Source of the DNA: Chitinophaga chungangae
GTDB taxonomy: Bacteria > Bacteroidota > Bacteroidia > Chitinophagales > Chitinophagaceae
Reading direction: 5' to 3'
Assembly (NCBI RefSeq): GCF_017742215.1
Contig: NZ_JAGHKP010000004.1
Location: 62,001 to 126,000, forward strand
DNA length: 64,000 nt
This document shows positions 49,934 to 64,000 of this stretch, in pieces. A program made the position numbers and the translations under genes. The notes under the pieces were generated by a model. The model was not told the DNA's origin and made no database searches. It saw nothing but the letters and a program-made list of their open reading frames with translations. Positions within the stretch are counted from its first letter, which is position 1, and the number at the start of each line of letters is the position of its first letter.

Positions 49934-51172
49934 ATGAAGCAGATACAGCCAAAAAAACTTTTTTACACCAGCTGTCTTTCATTAATTGTCACCGCCATGA
50001 CCTTCGCCATCCGCGCAAGGATCATGTCGTTATGGGGAACCGATTTCACGCTCAGCAACGAGCAGGTCGGCATTATTGCCGGCACTGCCTTCTGGGGCTT
50101 TACACTTGCCCAGATCATCGGCGGCCCGCTCGTGGACGTTGTGGGCATGAAGAAGATATTGTATGTCGCCTTCTTCGGCCATATTGCCGGGGTGGTGCTT
50201 ACCATCTTCTCCCTGAGCTTCTGGCCGCTGTTCCTCGGCACCCTGCTGATCGGCATCGCCAACGGCAGTGTTGAAGCGGCCTGCAACCCGCTGGTAGCCA
50301 CCATTTATTCCGGTGAAAAGACCAAGATGCTGAACCGTTTTCACATGTGGTTCCCCGGTGGGAACGTGATCGGCGGCCTGGTAGCCTATTTTATGATAGA
50401 CCAGCTGGCACTGAGCTGGCAATGGCTCATGGGCATCCTCCTGGTTCCCATCGCGCTGTACGGCTACTTTTTTTCCTCCGCTAAATTCCCCGAAACAGAA
50501 AGGGTAAGTTCCGGCGTTTCCTACGGCGATATGCTGAAGGCCTGCGTAGGCCCGCTGTTCATATTTATGGTGCTTTGCATGTTCCTCACCGCCGCCACCG
50601 AGCTGGGCACCAGCCAATGGATCGATACGCTGCTGAAACAGGTAGGCGTTTCCGCTATCCTGGTGTTCGTGTTCATCAACGGCATTATGGCCATCGGCCG
50701 CCTCTTTGCTGGCCCCGTGGTGCATAGGCTGAACCCCGCCGGCATGCTGCTGTTCTCCGCCATCTTCGCTGCTATCGGCCTGTACTGGCTGAGCAACGCA
50801 TCCGGTTATGTTACTTTCGCGGCTGCATTTGTATTTGCTATCGGCGTATGTTATTTCTGGCCTACCATGCTGGGTTTTGTATCCGAATATATTCCCAAGA
50901 CCGGCGCCATCGGCCTCAACATCATGGGCGGCGCAGGCATGCTGAGCGTGGCCGTGATCCTGCCTTTCATGGGCAACTGGTACGACAATAACAAAGCAAA
51001 GGCTCTCCAGGCCGGTGCCGATGCCGCTACTGCGGAGCTGCAGGCAGGCAGGGACACGCTCACCACCGTGATGATCATGCCCATCATCCTTATCGTGGCC
51101 TTCGCGATCCTTTTCTTCGTGTACAGGAACAAAAGCAAGGTGAACCTGCACGCAGAAACACAAACCGCATAA
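49934..51172 (+). CDS. MFS transporter (sugar-type)
   Basis: A 412-residue major facilitator with about twelve membrane helices. The conserved loop is GGPLVDVVGMKKIL between helices 2 and 3, with GIANGSVEAACNPLVATIY following and a central cytoplasmic loop near residue 190. The form is like the transporters that head Gfo/Idh-isomerase clusters in Bacteroidota and import sugars or oxidised sugars across the inner membrane. First gene of the operon that runs to 59009. The gap to the next gene is 31 bases. Confidence 0.85.
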   Translation: MKQIQPKKLFYTSCLSLIVTAMTFAIRARIMSLWGTDFTLSNEQVGIIAGTAFWGFTLAQIIGGPLVDVVGMKKILYVAFFGHIAGVVLTIFSLSFWPLFLGTLLIGIANGSVEAACNPLVATIYSGEKTKMLNRFHMWFPGGNVIGGLVAYFMIDQLALSWQWLMGILLVPIALYGYFFSSAKFPETERVSSGVSYGDMLKACVGPLFIFMVLCMFLTAATELGTSQWIDTLLKQVGVSAILVFVFINGIMAIGRLFAGPVVHRLNPAGMLLFSAIFAAIGLYWLSNASGYVTFAAAFVFAIGVCYFWPTMLGFVSEYIPKTGAIGLNIMGGAGMLSVAVILPFMGNWYDNNKAKALQAGADAATAELQAGRDTLTTVMIMPIILIVAFAILFFVYRNKSKVNLHAETQTA

Positions 51173-51203
51173 TCAAGTAATCATATCGAAATCAAATTAT
51201 AGT

Positions 51204-52367
51204 ATGGACAGGAAACTTAGAATGGGAATGATCGGAGGCGGAAAAGACGCCTTCATTGGGGCCATCCACCGCATCGCCGCCAATATGGACGGCCTGATCG
51301 AACTGAAAGCCGGGGCGCTGAGCATCAACCCCGAAATAGCGCAGGATTCCGGCCGCTCGCTGTTCCTGGAGAGCGACCGCATTTATACCGACTTCAAAAC
51401 CATGCTGGAAAATGAAGCCAAAATGCCTGCGGACAAAAGACTGGACTTCATCACCATCGTGACGCCGAACTTCGCGCATTTCGAGCCGGCTATGATGGCG
51501 CTGGACAAAGGTTTCCACGTAGTGATCGAAAAACCGATCACCTTTACGCTGGACGAAGCCAAACAACTGAAAGCAAAAGTGGAGCAGACCGGTCTTACCC
51601 TGCTGCTTACACATACATACACCGGTTACCCGATGGTGAAACAGGCCCGCCAGATGGTGAAAAACGGCGTGCTCGGCAAGATCCGCAAGGTTTGGGTGGA
51701 ATACCCGCAGGGCTGGCTCAGCAAGCTCAGCGAGCGCGAAGGCAACGCCCAGGCGGCCTGGCGCACAGACCCCAAACGTTCCGGTAAAAGCGGCTGTATG
51801 GGAGACATCGGCACACACGCCGCCAATCTCGCCGAATACATCACCGGCCAGCAGATCGATAAACTTTGTGCAGACCTGAACGTAATGGTGGAAGGCCGCA
51901 TGCTCGACGACGACGGCGCCGTGCTGCTGCGTTTCAACCAGGGCGCCGCAGGCGTGCTGATGGCGTCGCAGGTAGCGGCGGGTGAGGAAAACGCGCTGAA
52001 GATCCGCGTGTACGGCGAAAAAGGCGGTTTGGAATGGGCGCAGCAGGAGCCTAATACCCTGCTGGTGAAATGGCTGGACAAACCCACGGAAATTCTCCGC
52101 GCGGGCGGCGGAAACCCGCACCTGAGCAGCTATGCCACGCACAACTGCCGCACGCCGGGCGGTCACCCCGAAGGTTACCTCGAAGCGTTCGGCAACCTGT
52201 ACCGCAATTTCGCGCTCACGCTTACCGCTAAAATAGACGGGGCACAGCCCGCGCCCGAAGCGCTCGACTTCCCGTCTGTAGACGACGGCATCCGCGGCAT
52301 GGCATTTATCGATATGGTGGTGAAATCTTCCGCCAGTACCGAAAAATGGACGAAATTCGAAATTTAA
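51204..52367 (+). CDS. Gfo/Idh/MocA-family oxidoreductase
   Basis: A 387-residue NAD(P)-dependent oxidoreductase. The dinucleotide fold starts MGMIGGGKDAFIGAIHR, the EKP motif is VVIEKPITFTL (about 109-111), and GDIGTHAANLAEY holds the catalytic Asp/His. Members oxidise or reduce sugar hydroxyls, often at C3. In this setting it probably makes or uses 3-keto sugars, with the TIM-barrel isomerase and the DUF1080 enzyme. No signal peptide, so cytoplasmic. Confidence 0.9.
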   Translation: MDRKLRMGMIGGGKDAFIGAIHRIAANMDGLIELKAGALSINPEIAQDSGRSLFLESDRIYTDFKTMLENEAKMPADKRLDFITIVTPNFAHFEPAMMALDKGFHVVIEKPITFTLDEAKQLKAKVEQTGLTLLLTHTYTGYPMVKQARQMVKNGVLGKIRKVWVEYPQGWLSKLSEREGNAQAAWRTDPKRSGKSGCMGDIGTHAANLAEYITGQQIDKLCADLNVMVEGRMLDDDGAVLLRFNQGAAGVLMASQVAAGEENALKIRVYGEKGGLEWAQQEPNTLLVKWLDKPTEILRAGGGNPHLSSYATHNCRTPGGHPEGYLEAFGNLYRNFALTLTAKIDGAQPAPEALDFPSVDDGIRGMAFIDMVVKSSASTEKWTKFEI

Positions 52368-52425
52368 CAAGCCGTTTTCTCTGAATTAACGGATATTGGA
52401 TTTTTAACCGGATAAGGAAGAGAGC

Positions 52426-52449
52426 AAAAATCAAAGTGTACAAATGAAA
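52426..52449 (+). repeat. 24-bp direct repeat, copy 1
   Basis: An exact 24-base repeat of the sequence at 52473-52496 (AAAAATCAAAGTGTACAAAT followed by GAAA). It carries an ATG at 52444. Confidence 0.9.
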
Positions 52450-52494
52450 TCGCAGATTCCATTTGGCCTTTTAAAAATCAAAGTGTACAAATGA
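52444..52494 (+). CDS. Possible 16-residue upstream reading frame
   Basis: The ATG in the first copy of the 24-bp repeat opens a frame, MKSQIPFGLLKIKVYK, that ends with a TGA overlapping the isomerase ATG (ATGA at 52491-52494). If translated it would couple to the isomerase gene. No other support for expression. Confidence 0.3.
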   Translation: MKSQIPFGLLKIKVYK

Positions 52495-52496
52495 AA
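52473..52496 (+). repeat. 24-bp direct repeat, copy 2, containing the isomerase start
   Basis: Second exact copy, 47 bases from the first; it includes the ATG (52491) of the isomerase gene. The duplication therefore copied the start region of this gene. Confidence 0.9.
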
Positions 52497-53543
52497 ACGA
52501 TAAAGGGGCCCGGTATTTTCTTGGCGCAGTTCCTCGACGATAAAGCGCCTTTCAACAGCCTGGAGAGCATATGCAAATGGGCCAAAGACCTTGGCTTCGT
52601 GGGCGTGCAAATCCCCACCTGGGACGCGCGCGTGATAGACCTGAAAAAAGCGGCCGAAAGCAAAACCTACGCGGATGAGATCAAAGGCATCGTGAATGAT
52701 GCGGGGCTGGAGATCACCGAGCTGAGCACGCACCTGCAGGGCCAGCTGGTAGCGGTGAATTCCGCCTTCGGCGAACTGTTCGACGGCTTTGCTCCCAAAG
52801 AATTGCGCGGCAATAACAAAGCCCGCACCGAATGGGCCGTGCAGCAGCTGATGTACGCCGCCAAAGCCAGTCGCAACCTGGGGCTGAACGCGCACGCCAC
52901 TTTCAGCGGCGCGCTGATGTGGCATACCTTTTACGCCTGGCCGCAACGCCCGGCGGGATTGGTGGAAGCCGGTTTCAAAGAACTGGCCGCCCGCTGGCTG
53001 CCCATCCTCAATGAAATGGACGCCAACGGCGTAGACCTTTGTTACGAGATCCATCCCGGCGAAGACCTGCACGACGGCGCCAGCTACGAACGTTTCCTGG
53101 AAGCTGCCGGAAATCATGCGCGGGCCTGCCTGCTGTATGATCCCAGTCATTTTGTATTGCAGTGCCTTGATTACCTTGCGTATATCGACATCTATCACGA
53201 AAGGATCAAAATGTTCCATGTGAAAGATGCGGAATTTAATCCCACCGGCCGTTCCGGCGTATACGGCGGTTACCAGGGCTGGGTGGAAAGGCCCGGCAGG
53301 TTCCGCTCGCTGGGCGACGGACAGGTGGATTTTAAAGCCGTGTTCAGCAAACTGACGCAATACGATTATGCAGGATGGGCTGTGCTGGAATGGGAGTGTG
53401 CGCTGAAGCACCCGGAAGACGGTGCAAGGGAAGGCGCGCCTTTCATTAAAGACCACATCATCCGCGTAACCGAAAAAGCATTCGACGATTTTGCGGGAAC
53501 GGGGGCAGACGATAACCTGAACAAACGTATCCTCGGAATTTAG
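52491..53543 (+). CDS. Sugar phosphate isomerase/epimerase-type TIM barrel
   Basis: A 350-residue xylose-isomerase-like (AP_endonuc_2) TIM barrel. Metal-binding residues can be followed through YEIHPGED (Glu), LYDPSHF (Asp), MFHVKDAE (His) and LEWECAL (Glu). Such proteins sit beside Gfo/Idh/MocA oxidoreductases throughout Bacteroidota and act as isomerases, epimerases or lyases on keto sugars. The gap to the preceding oxidoreductase is 123 bases and contains the repeated start region. Cytoplasmic. Confidence 0.85.
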   Translation: MKTIKGPGIFLAQFLDDKAPFNSLESICKWAKDLGFVGVQIPTWDARVIDLKKAAESKTYADEIKGIVNDAGLEITELSTHLQGQLVAVNSAFGELFDGFAPKELRGNNKARTEWAVQQLMYAAKASRNLGLNAHATFSGALMWHTFYAWPQRPAGLVEAGFKELAARWLPILNEMDANGVDLCYEIHPGEDLHDGASYERFLEAAGNHARACLLYDPSHFVLQCLDYLAYIDIYHERIKMFHVKDAEFNPTGRSGVYGGYQGWVERPGRFRSLGDGQVDFKAVFSKLTQYDYAGWAVLEWECALKHPEDGAREGAPFIKDHIIRVTEKAFDDFAGTGADDNLNKRILGI

Positions 53544-53609
53544 CGCCGCGGATATCGGGCGACCAATAGGCTAAAACGATTTTTCTCAATTATAAAAACT
53601 CGGTAAACG

Positions 53610-54020
53610 ATGAAAAAAACAATGTGGATGCCGGTATGCATGAGCGCGGTACTCCTTATGGCTGCATGCGGCGGCGGTGGTGAAAAGAAAGAAGAGGGAA
53701 GTTCATCTTCAACGGAAACAACAACGCCCGCACCGGCGGCCGATAACTCGATGGTACAAGACGTAACCGGTAAAGGTAAAGAACTGATGGCCGCACAGGA
53801 TTGCGCGACCTGTCATAAAGAAACCGAAAAAGTGATCGGCCCTTCTTTCAAGGAAGTAGCGGCTAAATATCCTAACACGCCTGAGAACGTTTCCACGCTG
53901 GCAGACAAGATCATCAAAGGCGGTTCCGGCAACTGGGGCGAAGTGCCCATGGCGCCGCACGCAGCGATCTCAAAATCCGACGCGGAAGAAATGGTGAAAT
54001 ACATTCTCACCGTGAAATAA
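53610..54020 (+). CDS. Cytochrome c lipoprotein
   Basis: A 136-residue class I cytochrome c. Signal with lipobox MAAC (Cys20), a Ser/Thr/Pro-rich linker, then CATCH (haem; C65, C68, H69), IGPSFKEVA, and the axial Met in VPMAPH. It is a membrane-bound periplasmic electron carrier. The haem domain is clearly similar to the cytochrome module in the large fusion protein of the same operon, so it may take electrons from that protein or its substrate oxidation. Confidence 0.9.
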   Translation: MKKTMWMPVCMSAVLLMAACGGGGEKKEEGSSSSTETTTPAPAADNSMVQDVTGKGKELMAAQDCATCHKETEKVIGPSFKEVAAKYPNTPENVSTLADKIIKGGSGNWGEVPMAPHAAISKSDAEEMVKYILTVK

Positions 54021-54048
54021 AAATTCATCCTTTAAACAACCTTTTTTT

Positions 54049-54768
54049 ATGAAACGTTTACTCGCTTCCACGTTGCTGCTGGGCCTGCTTGCCGGCTCAA
54101 CGGTTACATACGCGCAGGGCCCTTCCCTGACCGCGAAAGAGAAAAAAGCAGGCTGGAAACTCCTGTTCGACGGTAAAACCACCGCCGGCTGGCGCGGTTA
54201 CCTCAAGCAGGACGTGCCCGGCGCATGGAAAGTGCAGGACGGCGCGCTGTACCTGGACACCGATGCCAAAAAAGGCGGTGCTTCCGGTGGCGACCTCATC
54301 ACCGAAGGCGAATACGAAAACTACGAACTGGAACTGCAATGGAAGATCGGCGAAGGCGGCAACAGCGGCATCATTTTCGGTGTTCACGAAGACCCGAAAT
54401 TCAAAGCCACTTACGCTACCGGTCCTGAAATGCAGGTGCTCGACGATGCCAAACACCCCGACGGCAAGATCAAAAAACACAACTCCGGCGACCTGTACGA
54501 CCTGATCGCGGCTTCCGCCAACTACTCCAAACCCGTAGGAGAGTGGAACACCGCCAAGATCATCAAAAAAGACGGCAAGCTCACCCTCATCTTCAACGGC
54601 CACAAAACCGCTGAAACGACCATGGGCACCGCGGAATGGGCTTCGCTGGTAGGCAGCAGCAAATTCAAGACCTGGGAAGGCTTCGGCAAATATCCCAAAG
54701 GCCATATTGCGCTGCAGGACCACGGCGATAAAGTGTGGTACCGGAATATCAAGATCAGAGAACTGTAA
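54049..54768 (+). CDS. DUF1080 (3-keto-disaccharide hydrolase-type) protein
   Basis: A 239-residue exported protein (signal MKRLLASTLLLGLLAGSTVTYAQ). The jelly-roll domain carries WKLLFDGKTTAGWRGY, WKVQDGALYLD, DLITEGEYENYELELQWKIG, GNSGIIFGVHED and ALQDHGDKVWYRNIKIREL, the classical DUF1080 blocks. The family is known to include enzymes that cleave 3-keto-glycosides. This fits the oxidoreductase and isomerase in the same operon. Periplasmic. Confidence 0.88.
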   Translation: MKRLLASTLLLGLLAGSTVTYAQGPSLTAKEKKAGWKLLFDGKTTAGWRGYLKQDVPGAWKVQDGALYLDTDAKKGGASGGDLITEGEYENYELELQWKIGEGGNSGIIFGVHEDPKFKATYATGPEMQVLDDAKHPDGKIKKHNSGDLYDLIAASANYSKPVGEWNTAKIIKKDGKLTLIFNGHKTAETTMGTAEWASLVGSSKFKTWEGFGKYPKGHIALQDHGDKVWYRNIKIREL

Positions 54769-54775
54769 TTGACCT

Positions 54776-55501
54776 ATGCGCAGCAAAAAATACCTCCTGT
54801 TCCTGCTGGTGATACTGGTGGCGGGCTCCTCCTTTAAAAAGGCAAAACCCAGGCTGCTGGTTTTCAGCAAAACCGCGGGTTTCCGCCACGATTGTATCCC
54901 GGTGGCCAAACTGGCCATGATACAACTGGGCGCAGATAACGGGTTCGACGTGGACACCACCGAAGACGCATCGGTCTTCAACACGAAGAACCTCAAACGT
55001 TACAAAGCCGTGATGTTCCTCAACACCACCGGCAACGTGCTGGACGACGCACAGCAAAGCGCCATGGAATCGTACATCAAAAAAGGCGGCGGTTACATCG
55101 GCGTGCATGCGGCAACGGATACGGAGTACGACTGGCCCTGGTACAACCAGCTGGTAGGCGCTTATTTTCTCAGTCACCCCAACCAGCAAACCGCCACGTT
55201 GCAGGTCGTGAACAGGGAACACCCTGCCACGAAACACCTGGATGCAAGCTGGGTGAGGAGAGACGAGTGGTACAATTTTAAAAGCATCGTACCCGGTCTG
55301 AACGTACTGATCAAAATAGATGAAAGTTCCTACCAGGGCGGGAAAAACGGGAACGATCACCCGATGAGCTGGTACCGGGAATTCGACGGCGGCCGCACGT
55401 TTTACACGGAACTGGGCCATACCAAAGAATCCTACAGGGAAGAAGCCTTCCTGAAACATGTGCTCGGAGGGATTGAATATGTAACCGGTTTGAAAAGATG
55501 A
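54776..55501 (+). CDS. ThuA-domain protein
   Basis: A 241-residue exported ThuA-like protein. The domain has RLLVFSKTAGFRHD, VMFLNTTGNVLDD, GGGYIGVHAATDTEYDWPWY and HPMSWYREFDGGRTFYTELGH. ThuA folds resemble class I glutamine amidotransferases, and ThuA of rhizobia is involved in trehalose use through 3-keto-trehalose. The gene is 7 bases behind the DUF1080 gene. It is a clear paralogue of the N-terminal domain of the next protein. No lipobox is seen. Confidence 0.85.
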   Translation: MRSKKYLLFLLVILVAGSSFKKAKPRLLVFSKTAGFRHDCIPVAKLAMIQLGADNGFDVDTTEDASVFNTKNLKRYKAVMFLNTTGNVLDDAQQSAMESYIKKGGGYIGVHAATDTEYDWPWYNQLVGAYFLSHPNQQTATLQVVNREHPATKHLDASWVRRDEWYNFKSIVPGLNVLIKIDESSYQGGKNGNDHPMSWYREFDGGRTFYTELGHTKESYREEAFLKHVLGGIEYVTGLKR

Positions 55502-55527
55502 CCGCAGGGACAAACAACATATTATCA

Positions 55528-55557
55528 CGTAGAGACGCAGGCAACTGCGTCTCTACG
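55528..55557. repeat. 13-bp palindromic hairpin, REP-like
   Basis: CGTAGAGACGCAG (55528-55540), 4 bases, CTGCGTCTCTACG (55545-55557): a perfect 13-bp stem, followed by CACTTTT. It is in the 91-base gap between the ThuA gene and the fusion gene. Palindromes with the core GTAGAGACGC are known as dispersed elements in several bacterial genomes. It could also be a partial terminator. Confidence 0.6.
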
Positions 55558-55592
55558 CACTTTTATACCACCACGTTTACATTACAAACAAG

Positions 55593-58500
55593 ATGTACTC
55601 AATGAGAAATTCTTTATTACTGCTGATCCTGGCTGTGACTGCCCTTGGTATTACGAGCTGCTCCAAAACCCGGCCCGGCAAGCCGAAGGTGCTGGTGTTC
55701 TCCAAAACCGAAGGATTCCGTCATGCCTCTATACCTGCCGGCATTAAAGCGATCCAGCAATTGGGCGCCGAAAACGGTTTTGAAGTGGACACGACTGAAA
55801 ACGCCGCGCGTTTTACGGAAGATTCCCTGTCGCAATATTCCGCCATCATCTTCCTGAACACTACCGGCGATGTGCTCGACAATCGCCAGGAAGCCGACTT
55901 TGAACGTTACATCCAGGCGGGCGGCGGTTACGTGGGCATCCACTCCGCCACCGATACCGAATACGGCTGGCCCTGGTACGGCAAGCTCGCGGGCGCTTAT
56001 TTCAACGACCATCCCGCCGGCACCGCTAAGGCAAAATTGACCGTAACGGACAAAAATCACCCGTCTACCGCCGAAATCCCCGACAACTGGGAGCATACGG
56101 ACGAATGGTATAATTTCAAAAATGTGAACACCGATACCAAAGTGCTGATGAAAGTAGACGAGAAATCGTACAAAGGCGGCACGATGGGAGACGATCACAG
56201 GATCAGCTGGTACCATGAGTACGACGGCGGTCGCGCCTGGTATACCGAACTGGGTCACACCGAAGAATCTTACACAGAACCTACGTACCTCAAACATATT
56301 CTCGGCGGCATTCAATACGCCATCGGCAAAAACCGTGTGCTGGATTATGCCAACGCAAAAACGCAGCGCGTGCCCGACGAAGACCGCTTCACCAAACAAA
56401 TGCTCACCAGCGGCGAGTTCTTCGAGCCTACGGAAATGGCCATCCTGCCTAATCTCGACATCCTGGTGGCGCAGCGCCGCGGCGAAATACTGCTTTACAG
56501 CGAAGCCCGCAAAAACCTTACGCAGGTGGGTTTCCTGAACGTGTATCACAAGACAGACATCAAAGGCGTGAACGCGGAAGAAGGCCTGCTGGGCCTTGCC
56601 GCCGATCCGAACTTCGCGAAGAACAATTACATCTACCTGTTTTATTCGCCCGCGGATACTTCCGTGAACAGGCTGAGCCGTTTTACGTTCAAAGACAATA
56701 AAGTGATCCCTGAAAGCGAAAAGATCATTCTCCAGTTCTATTCCCAGCGCCAGATCTGCTGCCATACCGGCGGTTCCATCGCATTCGGCGGAGACGGGCT
56801 GCTGTACCTTTCCACCGGCGACAACACCACGCCCTTCGACGAGCCTAACCAGCCCTACACCAGCAAAGGTTATGGCCCTACGGACGACCGCCCGGGGCAC
56901 CTGCAGTACGACGGCCGCAGAACTTCCTCCAACACCAACGACCTGCGCGGAAAAATTATCCGCATTCGTGTGAAAGAAGACGCGACGTACGAAATTCCTG
57001 AAGGCAACCTTTTCAAACAGACCGATAAAACAAGAGCGGAGATCTATGCCATGGGCACCCGCAACCCTTACCGCATTTCGGTGGACCGTAAAACCAATTA
57101 CGTGTATTGGGGCGAAGTAGGCCCGGATGCATCCAACAACGATTCGCTGCGCGGCCCGCGCGGTTACGACGAAGTGAACCAGGCGAAAAAAGCAGGTTAC
57201 TTCGGTTACCCGCTGTTCATCGCCAACAACCAGCCTTACCGCGCTTTCGATTATGAAACCGGCGTGTCTGGCCCGGCTTACGATCCCGCCAAACCCGTCA
57301 ATAATTCCCGCAACAATACCGGTCTTACCGAGCTTCCCCCGGCACAGTCCGCATTTATCTGGTACCCGTACGCCAAGTCTGAAGAATTCCCGCTCGTGGG
57401 CGCCGGCGGCCGCAATGCCGAAGCGGGCCCGGTGTATTACAGCGAGTTTTACCCGAAAGAGACCCGTTTCCCGGAATATTACAACGGCAAACTGTTCATC
57501 TACGACTGGATACGCGGCTGGATCATGGCCGTGACCATGGATAAGGACGGCAATTACCAGAAAATGGAACGTTTCATGCCATCCACCAAATTCAATGCCC
57601 CGATCGATATGGAAATGGGGCCGGACGGAAGGTTGTATGTGCTGGAATACGGCAACGGATGGTTCAGCAAAAACGCCGATGCCGGTCTTTCGCGCATCGA
57701 TTATAACGGCGGCAACCGCGCGCCGAAAGCCACGCTGAAAGTAGACAAACTCACCGGCGGCCTTCCCTTCAAAGTGAAGCTGGAGGCTGAAGGAGCGGTA
57801 GATCCCGATGGCGACCAGATCACTTACGTATGGAACTTCGGCAACGGCAACAAGCTGGAAACCAAAGAGCCGCATGCGGAATACACCTTCTCCACCGCGG
57901 GCGAATACCCTGTATTCGTAGATGTGACCGACGATAAAGGCGCCACTTCACGCACAAAAATGATCAACGTTTACGCCGGTAACGAAACGCCGGAAGTGAA
58001 GATCGATATCCTGGGCAACCAGCAATTCTACTTCCCCGGCAAACCGGTGCGTTACGAAGTGAACGTGACGGACAAGGAAGACGGCAGCACCGGCGCCGGC
58101 ACGCTGGACGCAGCCAATCTCTACATCAAGGGCGTGTATATGGAAGGAAGGGATAAAGCCGCCATGAGCCAGGGCCACCAGGTAATTTCCGGGGCGATCG
58201 CGGGCAAGAACATCATGGAAACCTCCGATTGTAAGACCTGCCATAAACCGAACGAAAAATCCATCGGCCCGAGCTTTATGCAGGTAGCCGGGAAATACAA
58301 AGCCGACCCGAAATCGCCTGAATATCTCGCGGAGAAGATCATCAAAGGCGGCGGCGGCGTTTGGGGCGAAACTGCGATGAGCGCCCATCCGAACATTTCC
58401 AATTCCGAAGCCAAACAGATCGTGGAATACATCTTCTCCCTCGCCGGCGGCGAAAAACAGGAACCGAGCCTGCCCGCCACCGGAACGGTAGACCCGACGA

Positions 58501-59009
58501 TGGGCCAGGAGCTGAAAGACAGGGGCGTGCTGTACCTGATGGCTTCCTACACCGATAAAGGCGGAAAAGGCATCCGCCCGATCACGGGCACGGCCAGTGC
58601 CGAGCTGCGCAACCCGCGGTTCCAGGCGGGCAGTTACGCGAAGGCGGACGCTGCGGCCACGGTAGAGATCAACGGCAAAAAACTGCTGATCCCCACGGCG
58701 AATTCATGGGCTTCTTACCGTGAAATGGACCTGACGGACGTAACCGGGCTGGAACTGAGTTATTTCGTGCAGGAAGTGCCGCAGTACGGTTATACCGTTT
58801 CCGTTCACCTCGACGGTCAGGCCGGCCAGCAACTGGGAAGCGCCAGCATTGGCGCGGGCGCCGCGGCGGGCAAGCCGAATACGGCCACGATCTCTTTCCC
58901 GGCGGTGAACGACGGGAAAAAACATACGCTGTACCTGGTATTCAAAGCGGCGGACCCGGCTGAGAAACTGCCGGTAGGCCTGGATGTGGTGCGGCTTTTG
59001 GCCAAATAA
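55593..59009 (+). CDS. ThuA - sugar dehydrogenase propeller - PKD - cytochrome c fusion lipoprotein
   Basis: A 1,138-residue lipoprotein (lipobox ITSC). Domain order: ThuA (about 25-250; KVLVFSKTEGFRH, GGGYVGIHSATDTEYGWPWY), a glucose/sorbosone-dehydrogenase-type six-bladed propeller (about 265-700; RGEILLYS, EEGLLGLAADPNF, CCHTGGSIAFGGDGLLYLSTGD, RNPYRISVD), a PKD domain (about 707-790; DPDGDQITYVWNFGNG), cytochrome c (CKTCH with C880), and a C-terminal beta-sandwich of CBM6-like type (about 976-1138). The protein could oxidise a sugar with a quinone-type cofactor and pass electrons to the attached haem. Start at 55593 or 55602. Last gene of the operon. Confidence 0.88.
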   Translation: MYSMRNSLLLLILAVTALGITSCSKTRPGKPKVLVFSKTEGFRHASIPAGIKAIQQLGAENGFEVDTTENAARFTEDSLSQYSAIIFLNTTGDVLDNRQEADFERYIQAGGGYVGIHSATDTEYGWPWYGKLAGAYFNDHPAGTAKAKLTVTDKNHPSTAEIPDNWEHTDEWYNFKNVNTDTKVLMKVDEKSYKGGTMGDDHRISWYHEYDGGRAWYTELGHTEESYTEPTYLKHILGGIQYAIGKNRVLDYANAKTQRVPDEDRFTKQMLTSGEFFEPTEMAILPNLDILVAQRRGEILLYSEARKNLTQVGFLNVYHKTDIKGVNAEEGLLGLAADPNFAKNNYIYLFYSPADTSVNRLSRFTFKDNKVIPESEKIILQFYSQRQICCHTGGSIAFGGDGLLYLSTGDNTTPFDEPNQPYTSKGYGPTDDRPGHLQYDGRRTSSNTNDLRGKIIRIRVKEDATYEIPEGNLFKQTDKTRAEIYAMGTRNPYRISVDRKTNYVYWGEVGPDASNNDSLRGPRGYDEVNQAKKAGYFGYPLFIANNQPYRAFDYETGVSGPAYDPAKPVNNSRNNTGLTELPPAQSAFIWYPYAKSEEFPLVGAGGRNAEAGPVYYSEFYPKETRFPEYYNGKLFIYDWIRGWIMAVTMDKDGNYQKMERFMPSTKFNAPIDMEMGPDGRLYVLEYGNGWFSKNADAGLSRIDYNGGNRAPKATLKVDKLTGGLPFKVKLEAEGAVDPDGDQITYVWNFGNGNKLETKEPHAEYTFSTAGEYPVFVDVTDDKGATSRTKMINVYAGNETPEVKIDILGNQQFYFPGKPVRYEVNVTDKEDGSTGAGTLDAANLYIKGVYMEGRDKAAMSQGHQVISGAIAGKNIMETSDCKTCHKPNEKSIGPSFMQVAGKYKADPKSPEYLAEKIIKGGGGVWGETAMSAHPNISNSEAKQIVEYIFSLAGGEKQEPSLPATGTVDPTMGQELKDRGVLYLMASYTDKGGKGIRPITGTASAELRNPRFQAGSYAKADAAATVEINGKKLLIPTANSWASYREMDLTDVTGLELSYFVQEVPQYGYTVSVHLDGQAGQQLGSASIGAGAAAGKPNTATISFPAVNDGKKHTLYLVFKAADPAEKLPVGLDVVRLLAK

Positions 59010-59033
59010 CACCCGTTAGTACGATATTTTCCT

Positions 59034-59069
59034 GGAAGGAAGGGCCGGATGGTCCTTCCTTCCTTTTTT
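59034..59069 (+). terminator. Terminator of the 3-keto-sugar operon
   Basis: GGAAGGAAGG (59034-59043) pairs with CCTTCCTTCC (59054-59063), followed by six T residues. Confidence 0.85.
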
Positions 59070-59271
59070 GGGAAATATAAACGATAATAGTGATACGCTG
59101 ATTGTACCCCGGGGGAGCAGACAAGGTGTGGTTATCATATCATTGGCAGAATGGAATTCTATTCAGGAAACATTACGCCTTTTAAAGTCTGATGAGAACC
59201 GGGCTCGGTTAACTGAAGCGCTTAAACGCGCTGATGACGGTATCAAGGAAGATCATGAATTAATTGACTGA
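59068..59271 (+). pseudogene. Remnant of a Phd/YefM-type antitoxin
   Basis: The frame reads NDNSDTLIVPRGSRQGVVII, then SLAEWNSIQETLRLLKS and a charged tail, the middle and end of a Phd/YefM antitoxin. The N-terminal DNA-binding part (about 20 residues, with the usual start and SxxR helix) is missing: the frame has no ATG and abuts the preceding terminator. No toxin gene (YoeB or Txe type) follows. I read it as a decayed antitoxin gene; translation from a TTG at 59068 is possible but unlikely to give a working repressor. Confidence 0.6.
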
Positions 59272-59319
59272 AAGAAATGAATTTATCCTGGGGCCCTCGG
59301 GGTGGGAGGATGAATAAAT

Positions 59320-59349
59320 CAAAAGGCCGCCTTTACCGGCAGCCTTTTG
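59320..59349. terminator. Hairpin between antitoxin remnant and membrane protein
   Basis: CAAAAGGCCGCC (59320-59331) with GGCAGCCTTTTG (59338-59349), one mismatch. A/T-rich outer arms allow either direction; it probably ends the convergent membrane protein gene. Confidence 0.6.
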
Positions 59350-59376
59350 AATTTGAATAAGTTATGACCGAAACGA

Positions 59377-59784
59377 TCAGCCGATCTTCATCATCTTTTT
59401 ACGCATCTTTTTCGCGCGTTTCTGGCTGATATACACAAAGTTCACCAGCAGCACGACGATAATGATAAAAAGGCCGAAAAACTCCCTGGTATCTTCGATC
59501 CAGGGGGTGGAAGCTTTCATGGCGCCGGCGATATTCTCGGCATGATGCTCGGTGGCCCAGCTAAGCACCCCGTCTTTCGCGAAAAAAAGAGATACGGCAT
59601 ACCCCAGGCAGGCCACGATGCCAAAAAGGTACCATCCTTTGTAATAATTGCCGGCGGCAGCAAGTCCGCAGAAAACGGCCCCGTAAAGATAGATCGGCAT
59701 CCAGATGTAAGGGTCCGGATCGTTCCACTGGAGCGCGGCAAATAACACAAACAGCACGGCAAAAACTACGTTGAATATTTTCAT
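59377..59784 (-). CDS. TMEM220-like small membrane protein
   Basis: A 135-residue protein with four predicted membrane helices. The N-terminal segment MKIFNVVFAVLFVLFAALQWNDPDPYIW contains the LQWNDPDP motif of the transmembrane family 220. A basic C-terminus (KRAKKMRKKMMK) should be cytoplasmic. Function unknown. Confidence 0.75.
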   Translation of the reverse strand: MKIFNVVFAVLFVLFAALQWNDPDPYIWMPIYLYGAVFCGLAAAGNYYKGWYLFGIVACLGYAVSLFFAKDGVLSWATEHHAENIAGAMKASTPWIEDTREFFGLFIIIVVLLVNFVYISQKRAKKMRKKMMKIG

Positions 59785-60160
59785 GTCATTAATATGAAAT
59801 AATGTTGGCTAAATTGATTAAACTTACGGAAAATCCGGCATACATAGTGCCGGAATCGTTCCCGAAAAAAAAAGTGGCCAAGATGTTTGTGGTTGTTAAA
59901 TAAATGTTATAATTTTAGAACATAAGGAACAACAAAATTGTTTTAAACCATTGCATGAATAAAAAATCTACGCTGACTCGTCAACCCGAATAAATTTTTT
60001 TGTCTTTATAAATTCCACTTTGAATCAGGCACTTTATTCCAGAAAAGTGCCGCTTGAAAAGACAGCCAGCTTGATTACCACTTCTTGCAAAATCGTTTTT
60101 CCAAAGGGAATGTTAAAATTTTGACACTTTGGGGTGAGCGCCGAACGATTTTTAATCCTT
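59785..60160. other. Intergenic region ahead of the ebo leader
   Basis: About 375 bases between the divergent membrane protein and the ebo leader. No coding frame of substance and no recognisable element; AT-rich in 59880-60010. Confidence 0.4.
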
Positions 60161-60167
60161 ATATTGC

Positions 60168-60318
60168 ACAAAGAAAGCTGCCTGATAAACGGCACGGCTT
60201 TTGAAATATTAACCCTGAAAACGACATTGGGGACCGCATCCCCTGAAGAATATCCTGGTTACTAATCAGGTTTTAGAATGGCGGAAGGAGAGGCACTAGT
60301 TGCCTCTCTTTTATTTTT
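60168..60318 (+). ncRNA. Structured leader or small RNA ahead of the ebo cluster
   Basis: About 150 bases with several stems: AAAGC...GCC with GGC...GCTTT (about 60174-60202), GGGG-ACCGCAT-CCCC (about 60228-60243), CCTG with CAGG around GTTACTAAT, and a strong terminator at 60288-60318. The ebo genes start about 85 bases after the terminator. It may be an independent small RNA or an attenuator or riboswitch-like leader. It does not match a known RNA class by eye. Ends are approximate. Confidence 0.4.
60288..60318 (+). terminator. Strong terminator in front of eboA
   Basis: GAGAGGCA (60288-60295), loop CTAGT, TGCCTCTC (60301-60308), then TTTTATTTTT. A textbook intrinsic terminator without a gene directly upstream on the same strand for more than 1 kb (only the antitoxin remnant). 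Confidence 0.85.
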
Positions 60319-60403
60319 AACCCGCCCCTGAAACCCGCGTCCCGCAGCCCCCGGAAAAAAATATCCCTTCCCCGCGATGCCTGAAATTCATTATTTTAGC
60401 CCC

Positions 60404-61282
60404 ATGGGATACGCATTTAACAGGGAATCGGTTTCGGGAACGTTATACCAGGTGCTCCTTAGCAATATTTCAGAAAAAGGCCAACATTGGATTTCAGATA
60501 AACTCCGCACATGGCAGGCCCAGCGCGCTATGCAAGCCTTCAATCTTGCTTTTACCGCCGCCCCCCGCTTTCTCGGCAGAGATGCCGTTAACGTAACCGG
60601 CGAACAGGCCGCGGTATTACTGCCTTTCCGGCTGGAAGAGTATACCGCAGACCGGCTTTTCAGGGTATGGTGGCTCATGCAGCTGCAGGAAGACGATCAG
60701 AAAATTTACGTTCAGTCGATAGAGAACCTCTTCCATGCCGCGGAAATGAACGAACTGGTGGCGCTGTACGGCGCCCTGCCGCTGCTGGCTTTTCCCGAAG
60801 CCTGGAAAATGCGCACTGCCGAAGGCATCCGCTCCAACATCGGCGTGGTACTGGAAGCCATTATGCTCCACAATCCGTATCCGGCGCAGTATTTAGACGA
60901 ACCGGCGTGGAACCAGCTCGTTATGAAAGCGTTTTTCACGGAAAAACCCGTGCAGCATATCGTAGGGATCGACGAACGTGCAAACGCTTCACTGGCAAGG
61001 ATTCTCACAGACTTCGCGCACGAGCGCTGGGCCGCGGGAAGAACCGTGCACCCGCTCATCTGGCGCATGGTGGCGCCGTTCATCCATGAAGGCAATTTTG
61101 AAGACATCAAAAGGATCTGGTTCTCCGAGCAGCACGCCGAACGGGAAGCAGCCGCGCTCGCCTGCGCCGCGTCTGCCTGGCAGCCCGCCAAAGACCTGCT
61201 CGCCACCCGGCCTGACCTGCAATCGGACATTGCCGCCGGAACGCTTACCTGGAGCACCGTTGCCAGTCGTGTAAATGGCTAA
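60404..61282 (+). CDS. eboA: EboA-domain protein
   Basis: A helical protein of about 292 residues with the EboA features: LFRVWWLMQL, the hydrophobic ALYGALPLLAFPE and the conserved LHNPYPAQYLDEPAWNQLV followed by HIVGIDERANASLARIL and DFAHERWAAGR. The role of EboA is unknown; it is essential in no known reaction, but the ebo cluster in cyanobacteria is needed to get a scytonemin precursor to the periplasm. First gene of the cluster, followed by the eboB-like gene after 63 bases. An in-frame ATG at 60377 would add nine residues. Confidence 0.8.
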   Translation: MGYAFNRESVSGTLYQVLLSNISEKGQHWISDKLRTWQAQRAMQAFNLAFTAAPRFLGRDAVNVTGEQAAVLLPFRLEEYTADRLFRVWWLMQLQEDDQKIYVQSIENLFHAAEMNELVALYGALPLLAFPEAWKMRTAEGIRSNIGVVLEAIMLHNPYPAQYLDEPAWNQLVMKAFFTEKPVQHIVGIDERANASLARILTDFAHERWAAGRTVHPLIWRMVAPFIHEGNFEDIKRIWFSEQHAEREAAALACAASAWQPAKDLLATRPDLQSDIAAGTLTWSTVASRVNG

Positions 61283-61345
61283 TTGATGTTATTGGCCGGT
61301 GCGCCCTTTATTCTTAATTTAAACCCAATTGTAATTTATATTCAT

Positions 61346-62332
61346 ATGTGTTGTAGTGCTCAGCTGACGGAAAAGGACCTTGTACCCCAATCGCATAACC
61401 CGGCTTACCTGGAGGCCATCAAAGGGATGCGTTTTTTTGACCCGCATGTACACATGACTTCGCGGACCACAGACGATTATCAGGCCATGGCAGACGCCGG
61501 GGTGGCCGCCATTATCGAACCGGCCTTCTGGCTCGGGCAGCCGCGCACCGGCGTGGATACTTTCCGGGATTATTACAGCAGCCTCGTGGGCTGGGAGCGT
61601 TTCCGCTCTTCTCAATTCGGCATTAAACATTATTGCACCATCGGCCTCAATTCCAAAGAAGCGAACAATGAAGCGCTCAGCGAACAGGTGATGGAAATCC
61701 TCCCGCTTTTCATTTACAAAGAAGGCGTGGTAGGCGTAGGCGAGATCGGCTTCGACGACCAGACCGCATTGGAAGAAAAATATTACCGCGCGCAGCTGCT
61801 GCTCGCAAAGGAAGCAGGGCTGCCCGTGCAGATCCACACGCCGCACCGCGATAAAAAACAAGGCACCCAGCGGAGTATGGACATCGCCATCGAAATGGGG
61901 CTCGACCCGCATATGGTGATCGTGGACCACAACAACGAAGAGACCGTGAAAGAAGTGCTGGACCGCGGTTTCTGGGCCGCCTTCACCATCTATCCCTTTA
62001 CCAAGATGGGAAATGAAAGAATGGTCGAAGTGGTGAAACAATACGGTACGGAACGTATCATGGTGAACTCCGCGGCAGACTGGGGCATCAGTGATCCGCT
62101 CGCAGTGCCAAAAACCGCCGCGCTGATGTTGGAACGCGGCATTTCAAAGCCCGATGTGGAGCTTGTTACATATCGCAACGCCATCACCGCATTCGCGCAA
62201 AGCGGCCAGCTCAACGAAAAGGATTTCGAACAACCCGCCGAAATAGACCAGAGCCTGAAATACAACGGCAGCACGGTTTTGCGCGGCGGCCAGCAACCCA
62301 GGCCCAATAAACAATCCACGATCATACGGTAA
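61346..62332 (+). CDS. eboB: EboB-like TatD-family metal hydrolase
   Basis: About 328 residues. Metal-binding residues of the TatD group are visible: H34 and H36 in FDPHVHM, E58 in IIEPAFW, E133 in VGEIGFDD, H164 and H167 in IHTPHRD, H195 in IVDHNN, and the Asp of NSAADWG. It is longer than TatD nucleases (about 260) by N- and C-terminal extensions typical of EboB. The substrate is unknown. The ATG at 61346 is chosen; the longer in-frame start at 61283 begins in the eboA stop region. Confidence 0.85.
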   Translation: MCCSAQLTEKDLVPQSHNPAYLEAIKGMRFFDPHVHMTSRTTDDYQAMADAGVAAIIEPAFWLGQPRTGVDTFRDYYSSLVGWERFRSSQFGIKHYCTIGLNSKEANNEALSEQVMEILPLFIYKEGVVGVGEIGFDDQTALEEKYYRAQLLLAKEAGLPVQIHTPHRDKKQGTQRSMDIAIEMGLDPHMVIVDHNNEETVKEVLDRGFWAAFTIYPFTKMGNERMVEVVKQYGTERIMVNSAADWGISDPLAVPKTAALMLERGISKPDVELVTYRNAITAFAQSGQLNEKDFEQPAEIDQSLKYNGSTVLRGGQQPRPNKQSTIIR

Positions 62333-62376
62333 CATTTTTTTCCATTGCTTTATTGTATTGAAAACCTGACTAACAC

Positions 62377-63279
62377 GTGAACTATATCTTCAGCAAACTG
62401 ACCGGCTACCTGCGACTGATGCGCCCCGCCAATATACTGACGGCCATAACCGACATCATGGCGGGCATTGCCATTGCGGGTTTTCTCGCGCACGGGCTCG
62501 CCGACGTTCAGGCTGTATTACAGGTAATTTGTCTTGCCATCGCCACCATCGGCCTTTACGGCGGCGGCGTGGTGTTCAACGATATTTTCGACGCAGCGCT
62601 CGACCGCGTGGAGCGGCCCGAGCGCCCCATTCCTTCCGGCATCATTTCCAAAACGGAAGCGGTGGTGTTGGGCGTATATCTTTTGCTGCTGGGCGTGCTG
62701 GCGGCTTTTACCGTGGGAGAAATTTCCGGTTTTATCGCCATCGCCATCGCCATCGCGGCATTGGTGTACGACAAATGGGGGAAACATCACAAGCTGCTGG
62801 GGCCTTTCAACATGGGGCTTTGCCGTGGGCTCAACTTGCTGCTCGGCATCAGCATCCTGCCCGAATCGCTGCCCCAATACGGATGGCTGGCGCTTGTTCC
62901 CATCCTGTACATCGCTTCCATCACCATGATCTCCCGCGATGAAGTGCATGGCGGAAAAAAACAGACGCTGATGCTGGCCGCGGGCGGTTACGGCATCGTA
63001 TGCGCGCTGATCTTCTGGCAGGGTTATATGAAAGGGGAAACGCTGAAAGTAAGTTTTTACCTCGCGGTGCTATTATACCTGATCCTCACCCCGCTGATCA
63101 AAGCCATGAAAGCGCCCACAGGGCCAAATATCGGCAAGGCGGTAAAAGGCGGCATCATCGGGTTGATAGCGATGAACGCCGCATGGGTGGCCGCTTTCGC
63201 GGTTACGCCCTATCCGCTCGCGGTGCTGGCTTTTCTGCCCCTGTCTATCCTTCTTTCGAAGGCCTTTTCCGTTACCTGA
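62377..63279 (+). CDS. eboC: EboC-like UbiA-family prenyltransferase
   Basis: A 300-residue membrane protein starting with GTG. It has eight or nine predicted helices. The prenyl-diphosphate/Mg2+ motif is NDIFDAALDRVERPERPIPSG (N68, D69, D72, D76) and the second loop has SRDEVHGGKK. UbiA-family enzymes transfer a prenyl group to an acceptor. In the ebo cluster the product is unknown, perhaps a prenylated carrier or lipid. 44 bases behind eboB. Confidence 0.88.
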   Translation: MNYIFSKLTGYLRLMRPANILTAITDIMAGIAIAGFLAHGLADVQAVLQVICLAIATIGLYGGGVVFNDIFDAALDRVERPERPIPSGIISKTEAVVLGVYLLLLGVLAAFTVGEISGFIAIAIAIAALVYDKWGKHHKLLGPFNMGLCRGLNLLLGISILPESLPQYGWLALVPILYIASITMISRDEVHGGKKQTLMLAAGGYGIVCALIFWQGYMKGETLKVSFYLAVLLYLILTPLIKAMKAPTGPNIGKAVKGGIIGLIAMNAAWVAAFAVTPYPLAVLAFLPLSILLSKAFSVT

Positions 63280-63432
63280 GCCACTTATCCCTTTGTTTTT
63301 AAGGAAGATGCGCACATGGTTGCCATACCAACTATTTATGCCCGGAATGCATCGCCCCCGCTGTAAAAAATCACAGCCGGTAATGCTCTTTTTTGTACAT
63401 TTATCCTCTTAAAAATTCCCCGGGAACCGGGC

Positions 63433-63437
63433 AGGAG
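63433..63437 (+). promoter_or_regulatory. Shine-Dalgarno site of eboD
   Basis: AGGAG 7 bases before the ATG at 63445, an unusually good site for this genome. It supports the start chosen for eboD. Confidence 0.55.
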
Positions 63438-63444
63438 ACTAGCT

Positions 63445-64000
63445 ATGTCGTACATTCAAAATTCTTTCAGCGTACAGTTCGAATACAAGGTTTTCTTTAC
63501 GGAACATTTATTTGACCCAGCCAATCCCGAATTTGCGGGTTTCCTGGATTCGCGCGCTGAAAAAGGCATCCGGAAAAAATTGCTTTTTATCGTAGACGAT
63601 GGGGTGACCAAAGAGCATCAAACATTGCAGGAGCAGATCACCGCTTATTGCGGCAACCTGGAGGGCTACGAACTGGTGCAGGATATTATCGTGGTGCCCG
63701 GAGGAGAGGCTTCCAAAAACGATCTGCAATTATTTTACTGGCTTGTAAATGAGATAGACCAGCACGCCATCGACCGTCATTCTTACGTGGTCGGCATCGG
63801 CGGCGGCTCCGTGCTGGACCTCGTGGGATATGTGGCGGCGGTGAGCCACCGCGGCATCAAACACATCCGCATACCCACCACCGTACTGTCGCAGAACGAT
63901 TCCGGCGTGGGCGTGAAAAACGGCATCAATTACCACGGCAAAAAGAATTTCCTCGGCACTTTCGCGCCGCCCGCGGCCGTGTTCAACGACGCGCATTTTC
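63445..64000 (+). CDS. eboD: EboD-like 3-dehydroquinate synthase homologue, N-terminal part
   Basis: The first 185 codons of a protein cut off by the right edge. It opens MSYIQNSFSVQFEYKVFFTE and carries the DHQ synthase-like blocks VVPGGEASKN, YVVGIGGGSVLDLVGYVAA (NAD and metal-binding region), IPTTVLSQNDSGVGVKNGIN and a following KKNFLG. EboD proteins keep the sugar-phosphate cyclase fold but are separate from the shikimate enzyme AroB; the cyclised product in this route is unknown. A 165-base gap separates it from eboC. eboE and eboF are expected downstream. Confidence 0.85.
   Translation, partial: MSYIQNSFSVQFEYKVFFTEHLFDPANPEFAGFLDSRAEKGIRKKLLFIVDDGVTKEHQTLQEQITAYCGNLEGYELVQDIIVVPGGEASKNDLQLFYWLVNEIDQHAIDRHSYVVGIGGGSVLDLVGYVAAVSHRGIKHIRIPTTVLSQNDSGVGVKNGINYHGKKNFLGTFAPPAAVFNDAHF

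Follow-up and report, generated by a model that had tools for sequence, protein, structure and literature searches.

The last 3.6 kb of the window, a stretch of 64,000 nucleotides from Chitinophaga chungangae (positions 62001-126000 of contig C9 in a genome of 6.04 Mb and 14 contigs, G000), hold the beginning of an ebo operon, a gene cluster named in 2016 that is spread over bacteria and plastids and is required for a cyanobacterial sunscreen pathway. Three complete genes and the first 556 bases of a fourth occupy positions 60377-64000 on the plus strand: eboA (60377-61282) encodes an EboA-domain protein of 301 amino acids, eboB (61346-62332) a TatD-like metal enzyme of the amidohydrolase fold with 328 amino acids, eboC (62377-63279), which opens with GTG, a UbiA-like prenyltransferase of 300 amino acids, and eboD (63445-64000 within the window) the first part of a sugar phosphate cyclase. 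The mechanical open reading frame (ORF) of eboB opens at TTG 61283, but ATG 61346 is the likely start because relatives align from there. In the adjoining stretch L002, the complete eboD (L002:5445-6599, window-equivalent 63445-64599; 384 amino acids) is followed on the same strand, beyond the window, by eboE (L002:6642-7850, window-equivalent 64642-65850; 402 amino acids) and eboF (L002:7902-9272, window-equivalent 65902-67272; 456 amino acids), with gaps of 42 and 51 bases between eboD, eboE and eboF. The order A-B-C-D-E-F on one strand recurs in every one of the 35 family loci that were retrieved in full, which excludes a chance arrangement, and two further loci that end at contig edges show B-C-D-E-F and D-E-F. 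Hence, it is confirmed that the window carries an ordinary and well-conserved ebo operon of the ABCDEF type, complete when followed past the window end. The eboC-eboD gap is a plain 165 bases here; in 10 of 26 same-genus loci (L043, L046, L054, L055, L057, L058, L061, L072, L074 and L076) two-component genes, encoding a response regulator and/or a histidine kinase, are inserted at this point in the reverse orientation, so that the operon is split.

Our profile searches allow a family assignment for each of the proteins. EboA clearly exceeds the cut-off of the EboA_domain model NF035938 (174.8 bits, cut-off 50) and misses the stricter "EboA family" model NF035937 (217.6 bits, cut-off 320). It has no Pfam match up to E = 0.1, and its alignment against the PDB yielded a single chance-level match (E = 0.47), hence no relative of known structure by sequence. 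EboB scores 63.9 bits with Pfam TatD_DNase (cut-off 27), remains far under the TatD subfamily model TIGR00010 (39.4 bits, cut-off 206) and has AF_1765 (3guw) as its best PDB match. In the NCBIfam scan neither EboB nor EboF reached a cut-off, and no ebo-specific model surfaced for either. The six TatD-type residues H34, H36, E133, H164, H195 and D245, which we take from the TatD literature to be metal ligands, are present in 117 of 117 distinct EboB relatives passing the length filter. EboC matches NF035940, "UbiA-like protein EboC" (390.8 bits, cut-off 250), and its N-D-x-x-D-x-x-x-D motif (N68, D69, D72, D76) is kept in all 105 distinct relatives filtered in the same way. EboE reaches its NCBIfam model with 484.6 bits (cut-off 250) and has no sequence relative in the PDB, the only match being at chance level (E = 0.029). 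Taken together, the predicted catalytic residues of EboB, EboC, EboD and EboE are conserved.

EboD is a member of the sugar phosphate cyclase superfamily, and its best NCBIfam model, NF004852 (570.7 bits, cut-off 333), bears the name 3-dehydroquinate (DHQ) synthase. Nevertheless, it is very unlikely that EboD acts as the housekeeping DHQ synthase, because the genome has a separate AroB (C1:633384-634292) that exceeds the aroB equivalog cut-off of 305 with 331.2 bits, because EboD stays below this cut-off (223.6 bits; 223.3 in the genome search), and because the two proteins differ at three positions. EboD has H242, S258 and D262 in place of K, R and N in AroB, whereas H265 and H269, presumably part of the zinc site, are common to both. 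H242 and D262 are found in 106 of 106 distinct EboD proteins, of which 72 have S at position 258, 33 have A and one has N. The best PDB match is the valiolone synthase ValA (4p53), only marginally ahead of the runner-up (164.3 versus 164.0 bits); ValA has an aspartate at the D262 position, where AroB has asparagine. A tree-based argument in the ebo passages of PMC5133447 likewise sets EboD apart from the housekeeping enzyme. The AroB locus also contains an ORF that resembles AroA by eye.

The preliminary description, made from the letters of the window alone, had placed the start of an ebo cluster at 60168-64000 and had called its genes, in the order eboA-eboB-eboC-eboD, an EboA-domain protein, a TatD-like hydrolase with all metal residues, a UbiA-like prenyltransferase with NDxxDxxxD and a DHQ-synthase-like protein. 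The cluster assignment, the order of the four consecutive plus-strand genes and all four family labels stand, and extension past 64000, which it had proposed, led to eboE and then eboF, so that the refuting condition it had set does not hold. Of the range given, the gene content holds, but 60168 itself lies in the upstream region. The proposed comparison with Ebo profiles supports the assignment with two caveats: EboC, EboE and the EboA domain reach their models, but the stricter EboA model is missed and the best model for EboD bears the DHQ synthase name.

EboF departs in its presumed metal site from the family under which it is annotated. It covers the whole Pfam Phosphodiest profile (PF01663; 212.1 bits, cut-off 23) and belongs to the same sequence family as the nucleotide pyrophosphatase/phosphodiesterases (NPPs) and phosphonoacetate hydrolase (2gsn, 1ei6), with which it shares the threonine at the nucleophile position (T44), one aspartate (D196) and the last histidine (H416). 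However, at three positions its residues are Q200, E239 and Y240, in contrast to the H, D and H of 2gsn and of three ordinary relatives obtained from a search of the phylum; neither motif is present in L183 (209 bits), the fourth relative retrieved. The roles of these positions as metal ligands and nucleophile are those we assume from the NPP literature. A comparison of 129 distinct full-length EboF proteins, 119 of them from Bacteroidota (L190 included) and 10 from Deinococcota, Pseudomonadota, Actinomycetota and Gemmatimonadota, shows T44, D196, Q200, E239, Y240, D284, H285 and H416 in every one; at the D8 position 104 have D, 20 have N, four have L and one has C. Four haloarchaeal EboF proteins all keep E and Y, with Q at the remaining position in one and L in three. 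Judged from these alignments, EboF is without the full set of presumed two-metal ligands of NPPs, and its presumed metal site is unlike that of the annotated family. That it is an ordinary zinc phosphodiesterase in which the motif changes are neutral would fit the full coverage of the profile and the retained aspartate, threonine and histidine, but is unlikely given that the three ordinary relatives keep H, D and H and that the exchanges, being invariant, are not drift. EboF may instead be an enzyme with another metal, an enzyme with another reaction or a binding protein. The passages on EboF in PMC5133447 and PMC6282210 describe it as a homologue of hydrolases with phosphate substrates or of pyrophosphatases and do not mention the ligand change; the altered site warns against the phosphodiesterase label.

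A second result concerns the cyclase position of the cluster. A tblastn search with EboF against 72,556 plasmid records matched 51 records. Based on hand tallies from three match tables, with a query for inositol-3-phosphate synthase (MIPS) from a Streptomyces cluster, EboD adjoins EboF in 15 of these records (with at least 47% identity), MIPS takes its place in 32 (within about 6 kb of EboF), both occur in none and neither in four; the EboD table comprised the best 60 of 116 records, so that a low-scoring EboD at another place on a record may have escaped. The four records with neither are two Streptomyces records (L204, L205), which have only eboB, eboE and eboF matches and one of which has a transposase-like ORF by eye, one cut by the record start and one from Haladaptatus. 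A direct search for EboD in eight MIPS-type loci (L192, L196, L198, L199, L200, L201, L203 and L207) gave no match in any of them. Viewed from the other side, a MIPS match of any kind occurs in 44 records, and in 32 of these EboF adjoins it; of the 12 MIPS records without EboF, the one inspected (Halomarina) has no ebo gene among its annotated neighbours. The MIPS type occurs in Actinomycetota (Streptomyces, Embleya, Nonomuraea), Gemmatimonadota (Gemmatirosa) and haloarchaea (Halocatena, Natronococcus, Halobaculum). Two of the proteins were scanned and pass both Pfam MIPS domains, and four lysines that align with those of the Archaeoglobus enzyme, which we take to be catalytic, are kept in eight of eight MIPS-type proteins. 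In Streptomyces coelicolor, a pair of a transferase (SCO3242) and a MIPS (SCO3243) is listed together with the CDA genes in the corresponding passage of PMC3610822.

The two cluster types also differ in their accompanying genes. Eight of eight MIPS-type loci contain a xylose-isomerase-like gene that matches the query from Streptomyces or that from Halocatena, the two query sources being among the eight, and within the stretch searched none of seven EboD-type plasmid loci and none of eight Bacteroidota loci has such a gene; in Ketogulonicigenium, which is of the EboD type, a different isomerase adjoins the cluster. In an EboB tree of 24 rows (22 labelled), Deinococcus (EboD) and Gemmatirosa (MIPS) are sisters with a support of 100/100, other MIPS and EboD rows lie elsewhere, and the starred branches force at least two exchanges between EboD and MIPS. 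In both of these loci a small gene, which we take to be EboG, replaces EboA. The haloarchaeal clusters, located on plasmids (L200, L201, L203), consist of genes for TatD, two xylose-isomerase-like proteins, UbiA, MIPS and an EboF-like protein and have no eboA or eboE match at E up to 0.001. The Halocatena TatD protein is 43% identical to EboB of the window, and for its UbiA protein the EboC model scores best, although under the cut-off (178.2 versus 250 bits). The evidence for the exchange comes from the plasmid collection, in which cyanobacteria are represented by a single plasmid (L208, with eboB and eboD); the titles of the 80 loci kept from the scan of named genomes read as Bacteroidota, except for L136, titled Williamsia. 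The EboD slot is therefore likely the slot of a cyclitol-maker, filled by two unrelated enzymes, and as two unrelated sugar-phosphate cyclisers alternate in one cluster, the ring that EboC prenylates would be made at this step. MIPS acts on glucose 6-phosphate, which consequently becomes a candidate substrate of EboD beside sedoheptulose 7-phosphate. In the open-licence literature we found no paper with both "EboA" and "inositol", and "inositol" does not occur in the ebo papers searched; to this extent, the exchange goes beyond the published passages on ebo.

A prenylated cyclitol appears to be the best-supported product of the ebo operon, and we assign a probability of about 60% to the reading that the complete Chitinophaga operon yields such a compound, serving as a membrane lipid, a carrier or a cofactor. 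EboD would cyclise a sugar phosphate to a polyhydroxylated ring (the cyclitol), EboE, a TIM-barrel protein, and the amidohydrolase-type metal enzyme EboB would tailor it, and EboC, in the inner membrane, would prenylate it. EboA may be a fast-evolving partner, swapped for EboG in some bacteria, that aids assembly or regulation, and EboF, with its nucleotide pyrophosphatase fold and changed metal site, could account for an unusual handling, or mere binding, of a phosphate-bearing intermediate. The cyclitol step draws its support from the fact that MIPS, an unrelated cyclitol-producing enzyme, takes the place of EboD in other lineages. The same replacement strengthens the cyclitol- and prenyl-containing product suggested in the preliminary description. 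It also backs the isoprenoid-cyclitol product proposed in PMC5133447, in whose ebo passages the alternation was not found as evidence. More tentatively, all ebo clusters, in bacteria, in plastids and in the MIPS form of haloarchaea, might produce one class of prenylated-cyclitol lipid; the ring would come either from EboD or from MIPS together with the xylose-isomerase-like enzyme, EboD would act on a hexose phosphate such as glucose 6-phosphate and not on sedoheptulose 7-phosphate, and EboF would have a rebuilt site, not of the zinc type, for another reaction on the lipid. In any case, the exchange turns a broad guess on ebo chemistry into directly testable questions.

Several points weigh against a prenylated cyclitol. 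The ebo passages of the literature name no product. An EboC from Maribacter farnesylated quinoline acids in vitro, accepting six of 14 aromatic acceptors, and no cyclitol acceptor is described for EboC in the relevant passages of PMC9235831. The ebo cluster proper of Nostoc punctiforme does not include eboD, which is located elsewhere (PMC6282210, in part). The NCBIfam name of the EboD family is that of a DHQ synthase, and more than half of the plasmid sample (28 of 51 records) consists of similar Streptomyces. The product released by MIPS is a phosphorylated alcohol, that of sugar phosphate cyclases a ketone without phosphate, so that the two cluster types may make different compounds. The isomerase contrast between them is not absolute either: some 7 kb before eboA, beyond the limits of the stretch searched, the window itself has a gene for a sugar-isomerase-like protein (52491-53543).

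Part of this evidence would suit a cluster in which EboD feeds a shikimate-type ring and EboC prenylates an aromatic, quinoline-like acceptor to give a prenylated aromatic metabolite, as 8-hydroxyquinoline-2-carboxylic acid is farnesylated by Ubi-297, itself an EboC, and by homologues from two further genera (PMC9235831, in part). The DHQ synthase name of NF004852 points in the same direction. However, the genome has its own AroB with the AroA-like ORF in the same locus, the K, R and N of AroB are replaced in EboD, and the slot is filled elsewhere by MIPS, whose inositol is not aromatic, which makes an aromatic product quite improbable. Somewhat less doubtful, though still rather unlikely in our view, is that the exchange marks a change of product, with the EboD and MIPS types sharing a chassis of EboB, EboC, an EboE-like protein and EboF and making different prenylated compounds. 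Besides the different products that MIPS and the cyclases release, the additional xylose-isomerase-like gene fits this idea, although it could as well serve the conversion to a common intermediate. The Streptomyces EboC falls into another NCBIfam family, SCO3242 (376 bits, cut-off 260, against 125.7 bits with the EboC model, cut-off 250), and the haloarchaeal EboF proteins are just 33-36% identical to EboF of the window genome; in contrast, the bacterial EboF proteins (45-57% identity to Chitinophaga EboF) and EboB are alike across both types.

A more plausible option, which we still hold to be a minority one, is that the cluster is an accessory of transport and that its product does no more than ferry a different metabolite through the inner membrane, in the manner suggested for the scytonemin monomer. 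In N. punctiforme lacking any of the ebo genes studied (eboD was not among them), the monomer stays in the cytoplasm, and the EDB cluster of Pseudomonas fluorescens includes a full ebo cluster (PMC6282210, in part). On the other hand, the largest groups of shared flanking ORFs among the 35 full loci comprise 17 loci, all of the same genus; a cargo gene common to several genera was thus not seen there, and a genus-specific cargo is possible. Transport is, moreover, a role for the ebo product and does not conflict with cyclitol chemistry.

Within its host group, the operon, traced by its marker EboE, is core in Chitinophaga and patchy in the surrounding family. EboE scores above its cut-off in 36 of 36 same-genus genomes (our own included) and in none of 23 genomes of other families; a wider draw from the family added three of three same-genus genomes, giving 39 of 39 in total; outside the genus, it contained EboE in 11 of 191 genomes, belonging to 10 of 100 genera. 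With the marker in every sampled genome, Chitinophaga is a good place to seek the ebo product. A scan of named genomes confirmed at least 582 EboB relatives, from which 80 loci were kept; all six genes were matched in 69 of them, and 11 are without some in the stretch examined. EboB of C. barathri is 98% identical to that of the window.

Directly upstream of eboA lies an RNA-like conserved element (60235-60318, plus strand), which consists of a hairpin, an invariant core of 24 nucleotides (60271-60294) and a terminator-like hairpin with a T run. It is present as a single copy in the genome; of 26 same-genus loci, 22 have an exact copy and 25 a recognisable one. It was found in four of four same-genus and none of 191 other family genomes. 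Changes from row to row fall mostly in loops and flanks, with one stem position varying between G and A opposite T, and a 146-base stretch with the element folds better than shuffles (z = -3.66); Rfam gave no match across 50000-64000 up to E = 1. Two loci (L084, L106) have the element about 5 kb ahead of eboA, and hence it could be either a part of the ebo operon or a small RNA of its own.

Further upstream, the gene at 55593-59009 encodes a protein of 1138 amino acids that joins ThuA, glucose/sorbosone dehydrogenase, PKD and cytochrome c domains according to the profile scan, in a run with genes labelled by eye as Gfo/Idh-, sugar isomerase-, cytochrome c-, DUF1080- and second ThuA-like. We considered a link between sugar oxidation and ebo and rejected it as local synteny, as matches in other loci are scattered outside Chitinophaga and other genes lie upstream within the genus. 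Genes with annotations of the sugar-oxidation type are neighbours of ebo in Haladaptatus (L202) and Ketogulonicigenium (L197), and Gemmatirosa (L192) shows matches at the sequence level. Downstream, 247 bases past eboF, a Gfo/Idh oxidoreductase gene (L002:9520-10854) has a Tat-like start by eye. It follows eboF in 16 of 26 same-genus loci, once inverted, and a match in only one of nine other-genus loci (L066; 32% identical, on the other strand) led us to attribute it to synteny and not to ebo membership. Among the plasmid clusters of Alphaproteobacteria (L193, L197), ebo adjoins dehydrogenases of the pyrroloquinoline quinone or another type, and in Ketogulonicigenium two Gfo/Idh genes stand immediately upstream of eboD. 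Two genes adjoin ebo genes in Aureibacter, Mycetohabitans and Gloeothece (L190 859-3919, L195 33-3115, L208 11846-15127), one for an uncharacterised protein of about 590-680 amino acids and one for a ferritin-like protein (PF12902 in L190); this pair possibly belongs to a metabolite served by ebo.

In the light of known systems, the cluster of N. punctiforme, which is needed for the export of the scytonemin monomer, shares the EboA, EboB, EboC, EboE and EboF families with our operon and differs in that eboD stands apart and a scytonemin operon is served (PMC6282210, in part). The Ubi-297 prenyltransferases of marine flavobacteria belong to the EboC family and are encoded inside an ebo cluster, as is the case here, with acceptors that are all aromatic as far as described in the passages of PMC9235831. 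The closest agreement is with the ABCDEF type reported from eustigmatophyte plastids, Bacteroidota and Cyanobacteria in PMC5133447: as far as its passages go, the six genes, their order, strand and families are the same, and we saw no departure from this arrangement in Chitinophaga. The operon itself is a further member of this already known ebo type.

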